45,029 nt of DNA from Actinomycetota bacterium (GTDB taxonomy: Bacteria; Actinomycetota; Humimicrobiia; Humimicrobiales; Humimicrobiaceae), in NCBI GenBank assembly GCA_023487035.1, contig JAMDEN010000118.1, positions 1-45,029 on the forward strand, written 5' to 3'. Positions 2,518 to 25,838 of this stretch are shown piece by piece; positions within the stretch are counted from its first letter, which is position 1, and each line of letters begins with the position of its first letter. The notes below the pieces were generated by a model. It was not told the origin of the DNA and did no database searches. It was given only the letters and a program-made list of their open reading frames with translations. The translations under genes were made by a program, and so were the position numbers.

Positions 2518-4042
2518 CTATTTTAATTTTGTGCCACATTTTGCACAAAATACCTGATCAGGCTCAACTTTTGCTCCGCAATTTGGACAAAATTTTATCT
2601 CTTCTTCTTTTTCTTCCTTTTTCTCTTCTGCTTTCCCCTGTTCAGCTTTTTCTGTTACTTGCTGAGGTACAGGTTGTTTATACACTGGTGTTTCCTGAAC
2701 CGGAGGAACATTCCTTCTTCTTGTAAGAACAAGAACAACTATAACTACGATTACTATAATTAAAATTAAAGGAATAACAATAATTAATACTAATACAATT
2801 GTTGTAAGCTTGGAGCTAACTTTTGTAGTAGCAGTTGGCAGTGTACTTTCTGTTGCAGCAGTTATTGTTACCTCGGAAGTATTTTGTGAAACAGTAGTAG
2901 TTTCCTGAACAAGAGGTTTATCCTGACCAATATTAGCTTGAGCTTTTGCTTTATATTCCTGAGCAAGAAGATGTCCGGCACTTAAATTAAGCACTGCATC
3001 AAAATGTTTAATTGCTTCGCTGTAATGCTGGAGTCTATACATTATTAAACCTGTTTTCCACTCATTATCAACCATACCAAGCTTGTTTTCTACATTTAAT
3101 AACGTTTTAATATCATTGCCTGGTCTTATATAATTATTTGTATTATCTGTGCCGGCAGATAAAATACCTATTACATTGCCATTTTTATCAAGAACAGGTC
3201 CTCCACTATTTCCAGGTCTTGCATCACTTTGAATTTGAATCCATTCTGTCCCGCCAACCATTTGCTTCCCGCTTATGGTACCATTGGTTACAGTTGGATT
3301 TAAAGTGTTTTCCTGTCCTATTTCAGATGTTCCGGGATAGCCAATTACCGTAACAGGATCTTGAATTTCTATCATTGAAGAATCTCCAAATAATAGCACT
3401 TGATAATGCTCTCCCTGTTTGAGGAGTAATTCTTAAGATACCTATATCTCTTTGATCAAACGGGCTTTTTGATATAATTTCTGCTCTTAAATAAGAACTT
3501 TTCCCTGGTCCCTCAGGTTGAGAAGCTGTTGCTGTGTTAAATTGAATATAAACTTCAAGATCATAAGGGGTAGTAGTTTGATGGCCTGAACCCTCAACTT
3601 TAATATTTTCATATGCCCAATTCCAGTCTGCATCAGTCCAGGAATCAAGTTGTCCATTAACTCCATAAGTATCCTGCAGATACTGATAAATTAAATCATA
3701 CTTAAATTGAGCAGCATCTATATCAATAACATGGCCAGCTGTGACAATAGTTCCTGTATCCGGATTTACAACAAAACCTGTACCTGCAAAAGCTTCATAA
3801 TAATAATTACTCCAGGTGTTTGTCCATGGGTCAAGTACATATCCATAGAATATAGATGTTATATAACACACTGAAGGTTCAACAAGGAGAACCTTGTCAG
3901 CAGCGGTAAGCTGATAATTTTGCACATCAGCGGGTATATTAGATAAAGAGGTTGTATCATCAGCAAATAAAAGTGTGGTAAAACTTGATAAAAGGGTAAA
4001 TATTGTTATAAACAGTAATACTTTAAAAAAGTTTTTCCGCAT
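2518..4042 (-). pseudogene. Frameshifted trypsin-like protease with TPR, membrane segment and zinc ribbon
   Basis: Two reading frames make one S1C/HtrA-like serine protease. The first part (4042 to about 3400) has a signal peptide or anchor (residues 1-27), the catalytic His in TAGHV (His104) and Asp in RDIGILRI (Asp199). The second part continues from about 3399 with LLFGDSS, IGYPG and the serine motif GNSGGP. A tetratricopeptide-like helix pair (MYRLQHYSEAIKHFDAVL), a Thr/Ser linker, one hydrophobic membrane span and a C-terminal double-CxxC zinc ribbon (FCPNCG..FCAKCG) follow. The frames join at TTATCAAGTGCTA near 3400, where removing one base restores LSVLLFGDSS. No PDZ domain is seen. 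AGGAG precedes the ATG at 4042. It may be a real pseudogene or a single-base assembly error, since both halves otherwise look intact. Confidence 0.8.
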
Positions 4043-10003: not shown

Positions 10004-13000
10004 TTAATTATTAAAACAAAAATTTTTAAAGTTACAAAAATCATTACATTTTTTAAAATCAGGTTCCATGTAGCTTTTATTTATTATATTATTTATTGCA
10101 TTTATAATGTTCCCCTTTATTTCTTTTTTTTCTTTATTTGTAACATTAATATGCATACTTCCCCCATCTTCAAGATAAAAAATTCTTCCTTCTATATTTT
10201 CTGCAGGTATATTATATAAATCAGATATACCGCAAATATATGATTTTACCTGATAAATATAATTGTTATTTTCTTTATTTTTTTTATAGTTTGAAGTCTT
10301 ATAATCATATAATCTTATAAATCCGTTATCTAATAAATCAATTCTATCTATTTTGCAAGTTAAATAAAACGAATTAATTTTCCAGTAAAATAACTGCTCT
10401 GTTAAAATATTTTTTACTGATGCAAAATTTAAAAGATCACTTTCAAAAAAATTTTTTATATACCTTAATAATCTTAAATCTTCTGAATCTGAATTATTTT
10501 TCTTTTTTATCCCGTTTAATTTAAATACAATTGATTTATTTAATTTTAATTCTAAATTGTCTTGCAATTTATCTTCAAGATATGTTCTAAAATAAAAAGA
10601 TGTTACATTTTCTATAAATTTATGCATTTTTGTTCCATAAACTGCAAAACTGCTTTCAGCTTCAGGTAAATTAATCTCATATCTATATCTATAAAGTAAT
10701 GGGCATTCAAGAAAAGTTAAAATTTCAGTTAAAGAATAAAAATTATTTTTTAATAAACTTTCATTAATATTTACTTCATCCAGACTTAAATTTGAAGGAA
10801 CAATTAAAGAATTTTCATTACATAACTTGCTACCGGATAATTTACTTATATTCTCTGCAAGAATTTTTTCAATTTTATATAATACATTATCTTCATTAAT
10901 ATTTTTATAATTTCTACTACTATCTTTTTCAATTTTATAAATTTTATCATTTTTCTTATTACTATAAGAAAATATCTCTTTAAAAATCATTTCAGGATCA
11001 TCAGTATAAAATTTTGCATTTAAATTAAAAGTATCATTTATATATTTTTTTGTTTCTTCTCCATAAAAAACTATATCACTACCTTCTTTAAAAATATCTT
11101 TGATAAACGGAAGGATACTTTTTCCACTTATTTTATCATTTAGAATATCTGACTGGTTTTCATATTGAGGATATGAAAGAATCAGCAATTCTTTTGCCCG
11201 ACTGCATCCAACATAAAATATTCTTTTTTCCTCCTCTATCATTACAGATTTTATCTCATCTTCAAATTTTTTTATACTTGAGTAAGTACTTTTATCTCTC
11301 CATACTTTACCATCTTTTCTTAATGGAGATGGAAGAGTATAAATTTTTTTTTGAGATTTCCTCGGTTTATAATCAGATTCCCAGAGCATTGGTAAAAAAA
11401 CAACTTTAAATTCCAATCCTTTGGACGCATGAATACTCATAAGCTTAACAGAATTTCCCTTTGATACAGTCTGAAAATCAGGATCTTCGTAATCAGTTTT
11501 TGCAATATCTTTAAGATATATAACAAAACTGTCAAAGTTTGCATTAAAATTATTTTCTTCAAACTCACAAGCAAGCTTTATTAAATTTTCAACATTTCTA
11601 ATTTTCTTTTTTGCCTGAACCCCGAATCTTGAATTAAGTTCATCATATAAACCTGAAAAATGAAAAATCAAATTTATAATTCCATTTAAAGATGATGTCT
11701 CGGAATTCTTTAAATAATAATTTAATTCATTAAGAAAAAGGTTAAATCTTTCTTTTGTTTTTTCTTTAAAATATCTACTTGAACTGAAATTTTTTAGGGC
11801 ATCTATTAATGAATTTTTTTCAAAATCTGATTCTGATCCTGTATTTATTTTCGATAAGCTATTTTTAATATTTTCTTCATAATTTTGTAAATAATTTTCA
11901 TTATTTTCAAATTTATTAAGCTTATTATAATTATATCTTTCATTATTTATTTTTCTTAAAAAATAAATGTCTCTATCTGAAATTTTATATTTTGCTGATT
12001 TGAGCAAATAAATAATAGCCTCATCATCATAAATATTGTTAATTACCTTTAGCCATGAAATAAGAAAAAGTATTTCAGGTTCATAAAAATAATTTTTACT
12101 TCCTATAACTTCATATCTTATATTAAACTTTTTAAAAGATTTAATTATGTTATTAAATCTTTTCTTTCGGCATAATATTGCTATATCTTTGTATTTATAA
12201 CCAGTAAGGTTAAGCTTGATAATTAATTTAGAAATTTGATTTGCTTCTTTTTCTAAAGAATCTTCTTTAAAAAAGATAACAGATGATTTTTTTTCATTAT
12301 TTTCAGGTTCTACAACTTTTAATTCTCTTTTTTTATTATCTCTTATTATTGAGTTGGTAAAATTTATTATATTTTTACCTGATCGAAAGTTTATTGTTAA
12401 AAAGAAAAATAAAAATATTGTTTATGCTGTCTCGCCAAAATAACTAAAATCCCGTATGTTTTCAATACATGCACCTCTAAAACCATAAATTCCCTGATCA
12501 TCATCTCCAACAATCATTAATTTGTTCTTATCTTTAGAAAAAATCATTGAAAGCAAATATGCCTGAGCATTATTTGTATCTTGAAATTCATCAACAAAAA
12601 TATATTTATATTTTAAAACATATTTTTGCTTAATAACCTGATTTTCTTTTAATAAAAAATATGGTAAAAATACCTGGTCAGCATAATCAATATAATTATT
12701 TTTCTTTTTAATATTTTCATAAATATCATAAATACCAGCAAGTTCTGTGATATATGGTATTTTTTCTTCTTCCTCTCTAAATAAACCTGAGCTTTGATAA
12801 TCAGCTAAATATTCTTTATAATTTTTAATATAATCTTTAAGGTTTTGTAAAGTTATAAGATTATTTTTTAAATTCCATATATAATCCAGCAAATCCTTTA
12901 CAAATTTTCCAATATCTTTTCCAGCTTTTAATTGTTTAAAATCATAATTTTTAAAAATATTATAAATTATCTGCCAGGATTGAACTTCATTTATTAATTT

Positions 13001-13333
13001 AAAATTTTTTCCATAACCTAAAATAAAACTATTTTCCTTAATAATGTAATTACCAAAAGAATTAAAAGTATAAATATCAATACTATCTGTATCAATATAA
13101 TCATCATAAAGATTCTTTTTTATTCTTTCACGCATATTTTCTGCAGCATTGTTAGTGAAAGTAAGTGCAAGTATTTCATGTGGTTTACAGACTTTATCTT
13201 TTAAAATTTGGATTATATTTCCCGTTAAAATTGAAGTTTTCCCGGAGCCAGCACAAGCAATAACCTTTTTTATTTCATTTTTACTGCTAATTATCTCTTT
13301 TTGTTCATCTGTTAAATTAAATTCTATTTCCAT
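10004..13333 (-). pseudogene. AdnB-like UvrD helicase-nuclease, split by one in-frame stop
   Basis: A superfamily 1A motor with a C-terminal RecB-type nuclease, for resecting double-strand DNA breaks. ATG 13333 (overlapping the upstream gene by 17 bases) opens 303 codons containing Walker A ACAGSGKT, Walker B VDEFQDTN and motif III DDDQGIYGFRGA. A TAA at 12422-12424 follows, and the same frame then runs on without another stop to 10004. It carries motif IV NFRSGKNI, motif V SIHASKGLEF, motif VI FYVGCSRAKE, the nuclease residues CKIDRID and YDYKTS, and an iron-sulfur set (LECP plus CNDFCNFKNFC). Without the stop the product would be about 1,109 residues, like its 1,096-residue partner. A single substitution (for example AAA to TAA) would explain it. 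The downstream half is a full-length open frame, so decay is recent or the stop is an error. Confidence 0.82.
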
Positions 13334-16300
13334 AGTATTTATCACAAAAAATTTTATAATCACAATAACGACAACTCATATAATTTCCTGGCATTATTTC
13401 AAAATTTTCATCTTTTATATTTGAAATTATTTTTTTAATCTTTAGTATTAAATCACTTTCATCATAATATTCATCAGGTAAATCTACGAAGGGATCCTTT
13501 TCGCTTCCTAAAAAATAATATCTTAAATTAATATTTTTATTTGCTAAATTTAATCCATCATGATTTAAAGATTTGCTGTGTTTTAAACCAAATTTATAAA
13601 TTTTTAGCTGTAATTCATCCATTAAATCCTGTTTTGAATATTTATTTTGTGAAGATTTAAAATCTATTATTTCTGCAGTATTTTCATCAATAATATTTAT
13701 AAAGTCTATCTTACCTGTAATAATATCTTCGTTCCCGAATTCAAATTCAAATTTTTTTTCACAAAAAAATGTTTTAGAATTTCTTATTTTAGTTAAATTT
13801 GCAAGAAAATAGTCAGCAACAAAAAAGTTATAAAAATTTTGAAAGGTTTTTATGCCATCTTCTATTATTTCTTTTAAATAAAAATCAAACCCGAATTGAT
13901 TTTTTACTTTTTGTATTTCCTCGTTAAATATTTCCAGTAAATAACACAATTCATATTTTGAGCTTTCTTGAAAAAATCTTCTTATCACTTCATGATAAAT
14001 GATACCTGTAAGAAGCGGAATCTTTTCTTCTGCATTTCTTATTTTAAACAAATATTGATGTTTGTATTTAAAGGGGCACTGGTTATAAGATTCCAAAGAA
14101 CTATAAGAAAAATAATTTTTATGTAAATTAAAAGGATTAAAATCATTTGTAGTTTCATCTTTTAAATTCCACCAGTTTTCAAAATTATAAATCTTGTTTA
14201 AATATAAAAGATATTCATTATATTTATTATTATCAGCTAACAAATTTTCAGTTATTCTGTAAGTAGAAACAAGGGCTTTCTTTTTTAATAACCATTTATT
14301 CCTTAAATAACTAAAATAAATTATCTTTGAATTAAAATCATCATTATTCTGTAAACATGTTAGTAATCCTGATTCTTTATTTTTAAAACTTTCTTTAATT
14401 TTTTTTAAATCACTGGAAATTTCTATAAAAAAAGATGATGTTTTTTTATATTTATTTGAAGTTATATATAAGTAATTTTTTGATCTGGTAAAACCCATGT
14501 ATAATATTTTTCTTTCCTGCTCCTCATGAATTTTTTTTATTTCATCATCGTCAGGGTATTTTTTTTCAAGAAACATTTGGAATATTTTGCTGTCATAAAT
14601 TTGAGGAGTATAAAAATCTGAAGGGATATAGCCTTTATTTAAAAATGGAATAAAAACTGCTTCAAATTCATAATTTTTGCTTTCATAAAAACTTATTATT
14701 CTGATTCCTTCATTTTCATCAATGTCTTTATTGCTTTCTTCAATTTCTTCTATAAACTGGTTATCTTTCAATTTATCAATATAATATAAATAATCCCTGA
14801 CTGAATTTTGCATTAAATTATCTTTATCAAAATTTTTAACACTTTCAAGATAGTCATTTAATACTTTTAAAAGATTTTTTTCAGAAGACATTAAATTATT
14901 ATAATTTAATATTTTTTCTTTAAAGCCAGTTTTTTCATTTTCAAACAAATCAGTAATAAATTCAAAAGAACTGATATGAGTTTTTTTTGAATATTTACTA
15001 ATTAAAGAAATAAATTTTATTAGTTTTTCATAATTATTTTTATCAATTTTTTTAAAATACCTTAGATTTTTTAAAATAAAATCCCAAATATTTTTATATT
15101 TAACTGAATCTGAGAAATAAACTGACTCTATTTCCTTAAAGAATAAAGGTTCTATGTCAAAAAATTCAAAAAATAGTAAATTTTTAACTAGCAAATCAAT
15201 AGAATTAAAAAAATAATTATTAATCTCATCTGGTATCTGGCTTAATAATTGATTATTATTATTATTAAAATCATTAATTAAAATGCACAATCTGCAGATA
15301 TTAAGAACATACTTGACATATTTACTTGTCGGTATAGATCTGGAATTCCTGAGGTAATAAGTTATATTGTTTTGAGCTAAAAAATTTTCAATTACTTTTG
15401 TTTCAAATTCAGATCCTCTTAAAATAATAGCTATATCTCTTAAGTTGATACCTTTTACCTTATTAAGAAAATAAATTTTACTAAGGATAAAATTTAATTC
15501 TTCATGTAAATTATTAAAATCTGTTACTACTACTTCTCCATTTACCTGATTATTATTATAGACTGATTTTGAATCTTTTTTTATCCTATTTTTATTTCTT
15601 TCAATAAACATTCTGGAAATTTCAGCAATAAGATAATTATTTCTGAAATTTTCGTTTAAAAAAAATATATTTTCAGGTTTAAGACTTTCATAAATTTTAA
15701 AATAATTATTTATATTTGAACCCCTGAAAGCATAAATAGATTCATCATCATTACCAAAAAAAATAATATTATTGTTTGCAATTTTTTTAATTATTTCAGA
15801 TTCCGCATAATTAATCTCCTGTAAATCATCTATAAGAACAAATTTATATCTTTGCTTATAATAATCTAATGCGCTTTTATCATTTTCTAAAATTGATTCT
15901 GTTTCCTGTAAAATTCTTCCATAATCATAAAAATTATTTTCTATTAATTTGTCATTATATTTTACATAAATATTATTTATCTCTGACATTAATTCATTTA
16001 TATAAGGAGTAAATTTTTTTGCGAGATACTCAGGACTTAATAAATTTTCCTTTGCCCTTAAAATATAATCAAATATTTCCTGAATTATGCTAACTTTTGT
16101 ATATGAATTACTTCTTAAAAGTTTATCAATATGAAAATAATTATTTTCATCTAAATTATTTAAAATGTTAGTAATTAATTCCCATTGTTGAGGCGCAGTT
16201 AAAAGTTTTATTTCACCTGTTAAATCATTAAAAATATTTTCAAATTTTTCTTCTTCATTAAATTTAAAATTATTAAAATTACTTTTAAAAAAATTTTTTA

Positions 16301-22451: not shown

Positions 22452-23699
22452 TTAATTAATTTGTTCTTCTTTTAAAATCTCGATCATTTTTAAACAAATA
22501 TTTTCATCAAACTGTTTACCGATATTATTTTCAAGTTCTTTAATAGCCTGATAATTATTTAAAGCTTTCCTGTAAGGACGATCTGTAGTCATTGCATCAT
22601 AAGAATCTGCAATACTGATTATCTTTGCAAATAAGGGTATTTTTTCATCACTTATTCCAAAAGGATAACCGCTTCCATCGTGTCTTTCATGATGATACAG
22701 CACTGCATTTGCGTAATCTTTTAAAAAAGTAATTTCCTTTACTATTTCATAGCCAACTACAGGATGCTTTTTAATTTCAAGCCAATCTTCATTTGTAAGT
22801 TTTTCAGTTTTATTTAATACAGATAAATCTACCTGAATTTTTCCAATATCATGGAGATTAGCAATATTTTTAAGTAATTCTATATCGTATTCATTTAATC
22901 TTAATTTCCTTGCTATTTTCTCAGAATAATCTGCAACTCTAACCGAATGGCCGGCAGTATAAATATCCTTTGCTTCAACTATTTTTACAATATGCATTAT
23001 ACTGTTTAATAATGCTTTTCTTTCATTATTTCTGAGCATATAAGTATATTGTGCAATAACTAAAGGCATTAAAGTAAAGAGCAGTGTAAATGGCCCATAC
23101 GTTTTGTAAAGAAATGAAATTGCAATAGCCATTACAACTAAAAATATATGAAATGGAAACAGCCACGCAAAATTATAAGCCCAGATATTAAAAATTTTAA
23201 TTTTCTGGCTTATGGATATTACTGAAGCTGTTAAAAAAGTATTTATGATAAAAAAGGTAACCGCAGTTAAAAAAATTACTCCAATATTTTTCGGGATAAA
23301 GATACTGTCATATTTTCTTTCGTACATTATTTCAAAAATCCAACTGGAAAAACCAATAGAAATTAAATACTGCCCGATATTAAATAAATGTTTATAATAT
23401 GGTACTTTTCTTAAAAAATCGCGGATAAAAAATGAAGAAATAAATGTGACTATTATTGCAGTTGATGGTCCAAATAATATTAATGCCGAAAGATAAATGC
23501 CGGAACTTACTGATACAAAACCTGTTTTTGGGAGTGGAACTGAAAAATTATCTGCAGCAAATATTAAAATACCAAACAGTACCACTCCCAGAACAGAAAC
23601 ATTTTTAAACCTTGAAATCAGATAAAATGATAGCGATAAGCCTGAAAGAAATATCGTGAATATATAAATCAATAAAAAGCTTTTACTATTATTTTTCAC
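22452..23699 (-). CDS. Membrane-anchored HD-GYP domain phosphodiesterase
   Basis: A 415-residue protein: about seven or eight N-terminal membrane spans (to about 220), then an HD-GYP domain that typically hydrolyses cyclic-di-GMP. Seen: His251 in YTAGHSVRV, the HD pair at 283-284 in NLHDIGKI, HPVVGYEI, and HHERHDGSGYP (336-346) with the eponymous GYP, then IADSYDAMTTDRPYR. All metal-binding residues appear intact. The membrane part has no named sensor domain that I recognise. The start is GTG at 23699 with AAGGA seven bases upstream. It lies downstream of the three-peptide array but seems to have its own extended -10 (23729-23737). Confidence 0.92.
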   Translation of the reverse strand: MKNNSKSFLLIYIFTIFLSGLSLSFYLISRFKNVSVLGVVLFGILIFAADNFSVPLPKTGFVSVSSGIYLSALILFGPSTAIIVTFISSFFIRDFLRKVPYYKHLFNIGQYLISIGFSSWIFEIMYERKYDSIFIPKNIGVIFLTAVTFFIINTFLTASVISISQKIKIFNIWAYNFAWLFPFHIFLVVMAIAISFLYKTYGPFTLLFTLMPLVIAQYTYMLRNNERKALLNSIMHIVKIVEAKDIYTAGHSVRVADYSEKIARKLRLNEYDIELLKNIANLHDIGKIQVDLSVLNKTEKLTNEDWLEIKKHPVVGYEIVKEITFLKDYANAVLYHHERHDGSGYPFGISDEKIPLFAKIISIADSYDAMTTDRPYRKALNNYQAIKELENNIGKQFDENICLKMIEILKEEQIN

Positions 23700-23728: not shown

Positions 23729-23737
23729 ATTATAGCA
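23729..23737 (-). promoter_or_regulatory. Extended -10 promoter for the HD-GYP gene
   Basis: The minus strand reads TGCTATAAT at 23737-23729, a perfect extended -10, with the GTG start about 25 bases beyond the predicted transcription start. Confidence 0.5.
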
Positions 23738-23755
23738 AATAAACATAAAATAATT

Positions 23756-23795
23756 AATATATTATTTAATATATTTATTTATTAAATAATATATT
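23756..23795 (-). terminator. Perfect 16-bp hairpin closing the small-peptide array
   Basis: AATATATTATTTAATA (23756-23771) is followed after eight bases by its exact complement (23780-23795). It starts three bases after the stop of the last 20-codon ORF and lies before the HD-GYP promoter. All A/T, with a modest T-rich tail, so it may terminate or stabilise the peptide mRNA. Confidence 0.5.
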
Positions 23796-23798
23796 TTT

Positions 23799-23861
23799 CT
23801 ACCATCTTACTGCAGAACCAAGGCCTATAAGTGAAAACATCATTTTGAAGAATCTAGCCAT
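23799..23861 (-). CDS. Small peptide copy C (20 aa), tandem array
   Basis: Encodes MARFFKMMFSLIGLGSAVRW, ending in TAG. AAAGGGGG lies eight bases before the ATG. It is the last of three near-identical ORFs of the same length; compared with copy B it differs at K3R and I14L. Charge is positive (R3, K6, R19) with hydrophobic faces, consistent with an amphipathic or membrane-associating peptide. There is no signal peptide, cleavage site or nearby maturation enzyme. Function unknown. Confidence 0.8.
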   Translation of the reverse strand: MARFFKMMFSLIGLGSAVRW

Positions 23862-23922
23862 TTTACTAACCCCCTTTCCTATAGTGATATTTGTATTACA
23901 TGTTGCTTGCAAAAATCATGAT

Positions 23923-23985
23923 TTACCATCTTACTGCAGAACCAATACCAATCAGAGAAAACATCATTTTGAAGAATTTAGCCAT
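23923..23985 (-). CDS. Small peptide copy B (20 aa), tandem array
   Basis: Encodes MAKFFKMMFSLIGIGSAVRW, ending in TAA. AAAGGGG is placed ten bases before the ATG. It is the middle copy. Lys3 replaces the Arg of the other copies, a conservative change. The C-terminal GSAVRW is identical in all three copies, which suggests that end carries the recognised feature. Confidence 0.8.
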   Translation of the reverse strand: MAKFFKMMFSLIGIGSAVRW

Positions 23986-24045
23986 TTTAAATTTCACCCC
24001 TTTCTTAAGTAAATATCAGCAGTTACTACATTAAAGATTATTTCT

Positions 24046-24108
24046 CTACCATCTTACTGCAGAACCAATCCCTATAAAGGAAAAAATCATTTTGAAGAAT
24101 CTAGCCAT
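24046..24108 (-). CDS. Small peptide copy A (20 aa), tandem array
   Basis: Encodes MARFFKMIFSFIGIGSAVRW, ending in TAG. It has the strongest ribosome site of the set, AAGGAGGTG nine bases before the ATG. It is the first copy, starting 45 bases after the 52-residue membrane peptide ORF, so it is probably on the same mRNA as the upstream HTH and ATPase genes. Differences from copy C are M8I, L11F and L14I. Confidence 0.8.
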   Translation of the reverse strand: MARFFKMIFSFIGIGSAVRW

Positions 24109-24153
24109 TTTTTAACACCTCCTTAATTAGTACTAATTTTTATAAATAGTTAA

Positions 24154-24312
24154 TTAACCTTTGTTATACCAAAGCTTAAATTTTTGTATTGCATCTATTA
24201 TCTTTTCATTAAAAATTAAAAAAATTATCAGCAAAATGAGGATAATAATCATTATCACAATTAGCTTTTCCCACCATTTCAATTTATTATTAGTATCAAA
24301 ATTACCGGGCAT
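24154..24312 (-). CDS. Small membrane peptide (52 aa)
   Basis: ATG at 24312 opens 52 codons ending in TAA. The N-terminus MPGNFDTNNKLKWWEK is polar with a Trp-Trp interface, followed by one strongly hydrophobic span (about 17-34: LIVIMIIILILLIIFLIF). A short charged amphipathic tail ends in KLWYNKG. It is a single-pass membrane protein by appearance. AGGGGA precedes the start. It sits 36 bases after the HTH gene and 45 before the first 20-residue peptide, on the same strand. It could be an anchor, receptor, export or immunity partner for the peptides; sequence does not decide. Confidence 0.65.
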   Translation of the reverse strand: MPGNFDTNNKLKWWEKLIVIMIIILILLIIFLIFNEKIIDAIQKFKLWYNKG

Positions 24313-24348: not shown

Positions 24349-24750
24349 TTAAACAAGATTTTTAGTTCGAGCTTCTATAAATTCTTTTAAATTATCTGAA
24401 GTTATTCTCCATGAGCTTCTTCCTTCTCTAATTTTAAAACCTTTAAGCTTGCCGTTTTTTAGTAAATTCCATACATTATCAACGGAAAGTTGAAGTATCT
24501 TTGCAACTTGTTCTGCAGAATATAAAATAAATTCCGAATCTTTTGATTCCACTTCATCTTTTTTTTCATCAGTACCACCAGTAAATAAATCTAAAAATTT
24601 ATCTAAATCTTTTTCTTTAATTCTTATTGCTTTACCAATTCTGATGGCATTTAATTTTTTCTTCATTATCAGGTTTATAAGCTCAGATTCACTTATACCT
24701 GTAAGTTCAGCAGCTTCCTTTATTGTGTAAAGATTTTGTTCTTCCATCAC
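24349..24750 (-). CDS. Double excisionase-type helix-turn-helix protein
   Basis: About 132 residues with two MerR/excisionase-type winged HTH domains. The first is NLYTIKEAAELTGISESEL to about residue 55, with RIGKAIRIKEKDLDKFL. The second is FILYSAEQVAKILQLSVDNVW to RSSWRITSDNLKEFIEA. An acidic-polar linker (DEKKDEVESKDSE) joins them. Such paired domains usually bind DNA as small regulators or architectural proteins; no integrase is nearby, so an excision role is not supported. The start is ATG 24747, whose A is the last base of the upstream TGA (TGATG), or GTG 24750. Tight coupling to the ATPase gene implies joint function. Confidence 0.8.
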   Translation of the reverse strand: MMEEQNLYTIKEAAELTGISESELINLIMKKKLNAIRIGKAIRIKEKDLDKFLDLFTGGTDEKKDEVESKDSEFILYSAEQVAKILQLSVDNVWNLLKNGKLKGFKIREGRSSWRITSDNLKEFIEARTKNLV

Positions 24751-25838
24751 GGTAAAATATATTTATTTATTAGTTGCCTTATTTCATATTCAATATTTAT
24801 TACCTCAGTTTGTTTGTTGCGAAAATTAAAAAAATTTTTGTTTTTATATTCAAAATAAGGAATTTCAAGTAGAACCGGGAATTTAGATATTTTCTCAAAT
24901 TCATCTTTTGAAATTGTAGAAAAATTATATGGATTATTTAAAATACTTATTTTATTTTGCAATTTAAAAGAATTGTTTTTAAATTTGTATTTTGAAAGTT
25001 TTAACGCGCAAGTTTTATCTGGTAATGAAATAATTATTAATGAATCGGATAAATTTATTGCTTCAGTAGTTAATTCTGTAAAATCATCAGGTAAGTCTAT
25101 TACGATAAAATTATAAAATCCCTTTACTAAATCAATAAGAGAATTCAGTAATATTAAATTAAATTTATTGCTTTGAGCAATTGATAAAGGAGGAAGTAAA
25201 ACATCTAAATCTTCGGGATCTTTTAAAATCAGAGATTTTTGTAAAGCATCTTCACCATCTTTATAATTTTCAATATAGTAATTTAAATTTGGAATCTGAT
25301 TTGTTTTTAAATAAGCAGACAAATCAGAAATTCCATCTGCAAAGTTTAAATCTATTAAAAGAACTTTTGCATTTAAAATTTTTTTTAAAAAATAAGCAAT
25401 ATTAAATGAAATAGTTGTTTTACCAGTTCCACCTTTTAATGAATATACTGATATTATCTGTTGATTAATAAGTTTATAGCTGTTTTTATAATTAATATTT
25501 TTTTCATTTTCTATTTTAGAAATAATATTAATAATTTCTCTTATATTATTTTTATTATTTATTTTATTTAAGGTAATAAATTTTGGATTAGAATTGTATG
25601 ATTCTTTATAATTAATAAGTATTACAGTTGCTTTCGGGTTTATATCTATATAGCTATTTAAAATATCATTGTTATCAAGATTTATATCCACAATAACATA
25701 ATCAGGCAAATACTCCTCAAGGTAATGTCTTAAGTATTTTTCTTTTTTAATAATAACTAAATCAAGATTTTCAGGTTTATATTTAGTTATATTATCAGTT
25801 ATTTCCCTATTTTCTGAAATTAATAATATTATTTTCAA
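24747..25838 (-). CDS. CpaE/TadZ/ParA-like ATPase with receiver-like N-terminus
   Basis: 363 residues. The N-terminal 110 resemble a response-regulator receiver fold (IILLISEN, then YVIVDINL with Asp51 in the acceptor position). The C-terminal part is a MinD/ParA-type ATPase with the deviant Walker A KGGTGKTT (135-142), the LLIDLNFADGISDL switch and FIVIDLPDD as Walker B. This order is that of CpaE/TadZ proteins, which position pilus or secretion machines at the pole; no tad genes are present here. The start is TTG 25838 without a clear ribosome site. A consensus promoter lies at 25953-25981, making this the first gene of the operon that ends in the three small peptides. Confidence 0.8.
   Translation of the reverse strand: MKIILLISENREITDNITKYKPENLDLVIIKKEKYLRHYLEEYLPDYVIVDINLDNNDILNSYIDINPKATVILINYKESYNSNPKFITLNKINNKNNIREIINIISKIENEKNINYKNSYKLINQQIISVYSLKGGTGKTTISFNIAYFLKKILNAKVLLIDLNFADGISDLSAYLKTNQIPNLNYYIENYKDGEDALQKSLILKDPEDLDVLLPPLSIAQSNKFNLILLNSLIDLVKGFYNFIVIDLPDDFTELTTEAINLSDSLIIISLPDKTCALKLSKYKFKNNSFKLQNKISILNNPYNFSTISKDEFEKISKFPVLLEIPYFEYKNKNFFNFRNKQTEVINIEYEIRQLINKYILP

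Follow-up and report, generated by a model that had tools for sequence, protein, structure and literature searches.

AgrC and ComD (HPK10) are multi-pass membrane kinases that sense peptides and have a small peptide gene adjacent, and MgrB, CydX and AcrZ are small one-helix membrane regulators of dedicated partners. Among the streptococcal SHP/ComS systems, an engineered 24-aa SHP1358 precursor gives rise to a 9-residue peptide (PMC7564271), and the receptors of the RRNPP type are cytoplasmic (PMC9765709). The locus described here lies within a 45,029-nucleotide stretch of DNA (hereafter, the window) from a genome of the class Humimicrobiia, phylum Actinomycetota (174 contigs totaling 2.23 Mb, with an estimated completeness of 80%), and consists of three tandem peptide genes next to a gene for a membrane sensor with a MASE9 domain. 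There is no RRNPP receptor gene beside these peptides; the adjacent genes encode the MASE9-HD-GYP, HTH_17 and TadZ-like proteins.

The three ORFs, identified from the ORF list, the sequence and the comparison of the copies, are all encoded on the minus strand, at 24046–24108 (copy 1, MARFFKMIFSFIGIGSAVRW), 23923–23985 (copy 2, MAKFFKMMFSLIGIGSAVRW) and 23799–23861 (copy 3, MARFFKMMFSLIGLGSAVRW), stop codons included. Each comprises 20 codons and has its own stop and, by sequence reading, its own Shine-Dalgarno (SD)-like sequence on the same strand: AAGGAGGTG at 24116–24124, AAAGGGG at 23997–24003 and AAAGGGGG at 23870–23877, respectively. The spacers between the copies are 60 and 61 nt long, so that the repeat period is 123–124 nt. 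Copies 2 and 3 also have longer in-frame non-ATG starts, but it is the ATG that, together with its SD, is conserved. This arrangement, including the placement between positions 23799 and 24108, agrees with the preliminary description; the strand is minus.

Comparison of the window copies to each other gives pS of 0.16–0.33 and pN of 0.04–0.07 for the individual pairs, and the pN/pS values pooled over species are 0.33 (20-mers, 8 species) and 0.34 (the 23-mers described below, 15 species). An SD-led 20-mer of the same length is present in all four other genomes of the same genus (G001–G004) and in a second genus (G016, G024 and G029), where it has the form MAKFFKMVLKMVGFGSTVRW; two tandem copies were found in each of these genomes except G024, with one. 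Recurrence of the same exact-length, SD-led peptide in two genera excludes chance ORFs. The 20-mers are a genuine gene family under coding constraint, that is, purifying selection, as the preliminary description had proposed from the codon changes between the copies. Its statement that the peptides belong to no known family also holds, with no matches at the curated cut-offs in the Pfam/NCBIfam profile search.

A single-sequence search with the 20-mer reached two genera only, and the wider relatives required a profile and then a single 23-mer query. Most of the other genera of the class encode a 23-aa form ending in VRW, in one to three SD-led copies. The consensus of 20 aligned 23-mers (GTG starts written as M) is M(K/S)KL.RIL..LGSLIGIC.TVRW, in which M1, S13, G16, V21, R22 and W23 are invariant; when anchored at the C-terminus, the 20-mers and 23-mers have in common a basic residue, a Ser, a Gly and the VRW end. 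Copies from one genome often differ little or not at all, pointing to recent duplication or homogenization. A TTTGC(T/A)GATATT-like element, located in the window 5' of copy 2 (around 24010–24025, minus strand; AACTGCTGATATTT), also precedes the second copy in G001, G004, G016 and G029, and is kept in two genera. Stand-alone copies, with no adjacent MASE9 gene, occur on G018:C157 (L148:3949–4020), G017:C52 (L149:19–90) and G009:C8 (L150, around 2796–2867); the last of these lacks an SD and looks decayed. Contigs break at or inside the peptide ORFs in eight cases (G005:C48, G009:C143, G015:C11, G017:C52, G030:C187, G155:C100, G175:C60 and G261:C116). The tandem repeats probably break metagenome assembly and so hide the peptide family.

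The gene that starts 99 nt from copy 3 (22452–23699, minus strand) encodes a 415-aa protein with an N-terminal membrane sensor and a C-terminal c-di-GMP phosphodiesterase-type (HD-GYP) domain, in which the HD and HHExxDGxGYP motifs are intact (Pfam, alignment, structure models and Foldseek). The sensor matches the MASE9 family (PF20972) with 31.4 bits against a curated cut-off of 24.3 (E 2.3e-7). In nearly all class loci with both flanks, the next gene encodes MASE9-HD-GYP, usually 64–101 nt and at most 272 nt after the last peptide copy. Among the 40 class genomes, 23 have both the peptide and MASE9-HD-GYP, neither was detected in 15, two have the peptide alone, and none has MASE9-HD-GYP alone; in both peptide-alone genomes, the peptide is at or near a contig end (277 nt from the end in G039, and a peptide start interrupted by the contig end in G030). 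Some class genomes first read as peptide-free were reconsidered because the G030 contig ends inside the peptide ORF and the G032 contig stops just before the peptide site. In five of the 15 genomes with neither gene (G006, G012, G013, G020 and G022), the locus is intact but empty, with the synteny kept. The peptide gene and the MASE9-HD-GYP gene are gained or lost together.

In the interval that separates copy 3 from the HD-GYP gene, the extended -10-like sequence TGCTATAAT (23729–23737, minus strand) is a putative promoter, and a TATAAT-like element is found at a similar position in most relatives; an AT-rich inverted repeat 3' of copy 3 (23756–23795, no strand assigned) is a possible transcript end. 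Upstream of the peptides, all on the minus strand, are a 52-aa single-pass membrane ORF (24154–24312; ORF list and synteny), a gene for a protein with two HTH_17 domains (24349–24750; Pfam) and a gene for a TadZ/CpaE-like ATPase with a receiver-like N-terminus and an AAA_31 domain (24747–25838; Pfam). The single-pass ORF of 50-odd aa after the HTH_17 gene (also L158:3346–3504) persists where the peptide and HD-GYP genes are missing and is probably not part of the peptide/MASE9 module. Which genes lie upstream differs among the genera (named by eye from the sequences): most have the TadZ-like and HTH_17 genes, g2 and g4 have a divergent BlaI/BlaR-type pair, and f3 has dinB. HTH_17/TadZ was considered as an obligate partner and rejected: HTH_17 occurs in peptide-free genomes and was undetected in five genomes with the peptide. 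Elsewhere in the window, a trypsin-like protease gene (2518–4042) appears split over the overlapping ORFs 3323–4042 and 2518–3399, likely by a frameshift or assembly error, and a UvrD/AddA-like helicase gene (10004–13363) appears split into ORFs 12422–13363 and 10004–12007, possibly by a frameshift.

Short peptides are paired with MASE9 elsewhere in the phylum, too. Matches to the Pfam MASE9 model are present in 107 of 397 genomes of the phylum. Two early matches had a short SD-led ORF ahead of the gene, whereupon many more upstream regions were read, and similar SD-led ORFs of 24–32 aa, for example, MKTKIIVLLTSLAALVLGGGAGWRW, were found outside the class. Under a strict both-strand rule (a tail-type ORF with an SD, no farther than 1.5 kb from the MASE9 gene, on its start side, GA required), such an ORF accompanies 49 of the 73 non-class MASE9 genes, 42 times co-directionally and seven times divergently, with five such ORFs elsewhere in the same loci; in the block-shuffled sequence control, there was one ORF versus 73. 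By this rule, 24 of the 73 genes have no such ORF, at least two of these (G340 and G175) having been missed for technical reasons. The reciprocal search of 387 phylum genomes with a profile of 27 peptides yielded 76 matches, spread over 60 genomes. A Pfam MASE9 match is located no more than 2.5 kb away for 44 of these (31 on the same strand and 13 on the opposite one), a number that includes the seeds because those were drawn from MASE9 loci. As for the other 32, 26 adjoin a MASE9-like ORF detected with an HMM built here, three are at contig ends, two, both in G186, have no MASE9 gene adjacent, and one was not fetched; in total, 70 of the 76 matches adjoin a MASE9 or MASE9-like gene. A cleaner test is provided by the 26 additional cases, whose contigs had not been looked at earlier. 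The MASE9-like HMM had no false matches among 474 control ORFs, the class MASE9 genes there being also in its training set, and in seven of the 10 HMM-only cases checked, there is a sub-threshold Pfam MASE9 match at the right position. The phylum-wide profile misses the class peptides at E 1e-3, so that homology between the peptides inside and outside the class rests on the layout and the common MASE9 neighbor.

The output domains of the partners vary, including HD-GYP, HisKA_3/HATPase (histidine kinase) and GGDEF-EAL; HD-GYP as the specific partner was accordingly rejected. The sensor domain is constant while the output and the gene orientation vary, so that MASE9 itself is the most likely target of the peptide. 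The stand-alone copies, the two G186 matches and the MASE9 genes without an ORF weigh against a dedicated partnership; we nevertheless hold it highly probable that the peptide is a dedicated partner of MASE9. We propose the MASE9-associated short peptides (approximately 20–32 codons, SD-led) as a previously unannotated family, to which the window ORFs belong on all three counts: their length with an SD, their MASE9 neighbor and the peptide layout described below. Searching viral contigs, we found no relatives of the MASE9 domain; in other phyla, the control search detected MASE9 in Thermotoga maritima and in Thermus. Many non-class loci also contain, adjoining the peptide/MASE9 pair, a conserved protein of about 215–250 aa without a Pfam family (40 non-redundant sequences; for example, L196:1200–1871, L312:246–917, L320:2206–2967 and L305:1095–1712), which is absent in the class loci tested and is a possible third component. 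In L306, L308, L314, L316 and L322, the peptide ORF is located between two MASE9-type genes, mostly histidine kinases.

The window peptides, as in MARFFK-MMFSLI-GLG-SAVRW, have a basic start, a hydrophobic core, G-x-[A/C/G] and a basic/aromatic tail, and in the class peptides in general, five residues come after G-x-[C/A/G], the last three being VRW. The non-class ORFs combine an MKxR-type start, a hydrophobic core, [small]-G-A and mostly 4–6 end residues (GWRW, RFRF, HWRW, NWRY). All 60 non-redundant non-class peptides have a net positive start, Ala at -1 (imposed by the rule) and a small or aliphatic residue at -3; their tails, of 4–7 residues, are basic in 58 and contain an aromatic residue or His in 51. 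The -3/-1 small-residue pattern (the signal peptidase I rule) is present after the core, but its GA part was itself a selection criterion, used for the scan and likewise for the tail statistics and the seeds of the profile. From the sequences, the peptides look like short signal-peptide-like precursors. Where the copies within a genome are unequal (six genomes), none of the 20 variable positions falls in the last five residues (P 0.003, uniform model), which fits the tail being the functional end.

The predicted fold of MASE9 (pLDDT 80.7, pTM 0.80) weakly resembles those of ECF S components, which are among its best PDB matches in Foldseek (TmRibU, probability 1.00, TM 0.62; ThiT; E > 0.1). 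S components bind ligands from outside. In the mechanism that we favor, the basic N-terminus of the peptide would stay inside the cell, the short hydrophobic stretch would insert into the membrane and anchor the peptide much as a signal peptide does, and the C-terminal tail (S-A/T-V-R-W in the window peptides) would be placed outside. A membrane protease would cut at G-x-[A/C/G], freeing a basic/aromatic signal of 4–6 residues, and this signal, or the still-anchored tail, would bind the S-component-like MASE9 domain on its outer face; the bound domain would change the activity of the attached HD-GYP phosphodiesterase and hence cellular c-di-GMP, with the tandem copies raising the amount of peptide relative to the receptor. 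For this full chain of export, cleavage and binding, we see about even chances. Several features weigh against it: a chain of 20–25 aa is very short for Sec export, G-x-A occurs as a pattern of helix packing as well, and VRW does not vary within the class, whereas pheromones diverge fast; no exporter or protease gene linked to the peptide loci was found. The broader reading, namely, peptide communication throughout the phylum, in which 20–32-aa precursors would yield linear signals of 4–6 residues that act through MASE9 on c-di-GMP enzymes and histidine kinases, is put forward more tentatively, at somewhat less than even chances; MASE9 would then be a vitamin-transporter-like membrane fold used as a direct peptide receptor.

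A serious rival is that the uncut peptide is a permanent one-helix membrane subunit or inhibitor, comparable to CydX or MgrB with their own partners, that sits beside the MASE9 helices and tunes or stabilizes the sensor. This explanation fits the genomic evidence almost as well as the external signal: the pairing with MASE9 is equally expected, the hydrophobicity of the 23-mers (about -5 to -6.5 kcal/mol on the octanol scale) suffices for a short membrane helix, the 23-mers contain the small-residue pattern GSxxG, conservation across genera is strong, and exporter and protease genes are absent nearby. Two to three tandem copies and stand-alone ones, however, suit excess production better than 1:1 assembly, and the hydrophobic core is short; furthermore, within genomes, the tail is the most constant part while the core drifts, and between lineages the tails differ in length and sequence, as ligands do. 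We therefore regard the subunit as a realistic possibility, with roughly one chance in three in its favor.

Much less probable is that the ORFs are leader peptides (uORFs) the translation of which controls the downstream sensor gene via stalling or attenuation. They are usually directly upstream of the sensor gene on the same strand and have constant C-terminal residues before the stop codon, but the ORF is divergent in seven of 49 forward cases and lies on the other strand in 13 of the 44 reciprocal ones, the promoter-like TATAAT element lies between peptide and sensor gene, stand-alone copies exist, and there are no matches to known RNA families. A type I toxin (a small hydrophobic peptide counteracted by an antisense RNA) or an antimicrobial peptide such as a leaderless bacteriocin would likewise be short, hydrophobic, cationic and encoded in tandem; such a role is very unlikely, given that it leaves the reciprocal tie to a sensor domain unexplained, that no immunity or transport gene was found nearby with Pfam, that the position is stable at one locus and, for the toxin, that no Rfam antisense family was found in the window, where an undescribed RNA would be missed by Rfam. 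Least credible is a SpoVM-like amphipathic helix with a role in binding curved membrane or in positioning division or pilus proteins: the peptides are cationic and hydrophobic, and a dcw cluster is nearby, with DivIVA, SepF and TadZ-like genes among the neighbors, but the helix is not strongly amphipathic (hydrophobic moment 0.34–0.44, not significantly greater than in shuffles, compared to 0.62 for SpoVM), genera g2 and g4 and family f3 keep peptide and sensor without TadZ/HTH_17 at the locus, and five genomes retain TadZ/HTH or HTH without the peptide.

Of the functions that the preliminary description had offered, pheromone-like signaling is the best match, given the reciprocal, phylum-wide tie between the peptide and a single sensor domain; the bacteriocin, modulin-like and SpoVM-like curvature-sensing roles are not favored because the MASE9 pairing follows from none of them and the hydrophobic moment is unremarkable. 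The HD-GYP partner gene, the relatives of 23–32 aa and the resemblance to signal peptides in layout had escaped that description. In the literature covered, which excludes most subscription journals and preprints, we found no relevant paper on MASE9, be it on its input, a ligand or a peptide partner, and none on peptides combined with HD-GYP. For this curated sensor domain, the reciprocal, output-independent pairing supplies a specific candidate ligand that is accessible by synthesis. If the signaling role is real, peptide signaling would be linked directly to c-di-GMP turnover, and a peptide system would be added to a phylum with few described. It would also show that gene callers overlook a family with members in dozens of genera because its genes are shorter than 33 codons.

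Compared to the known systems, the peptides resemble streptococcal SHP/ComS (Rgg/ComR, RRNPP) in that a short gene adjoins a receptor gene and a hydrophobic precursor would give a short mature signal. RRNPP peptides, however, are re-imported, whereas the partner here is a membrane sensor with an HD-GYP, kinase or GGDEF-EAL output, the tails are of 4–6 basic/aromatic residues, and the phylum is the Actinomycetota. With AgrC/ComD, the present system has in common the multi-pass membrane sensor, the adjacent small peptide gene and, at some loci, the kinase output, but the sensor is MASE9, most of the partners are HD-GYP proteins, and there is no gene for a cyclase or processing exporter. MgrB, CydX and AcrZ are similar in being very short membrane proteins with a dedicated large partner; the peptides described here differ from these in being smaller (20–32 aa) and arranged in tandem, and in combining an invariant processing-like site with a variable tail.
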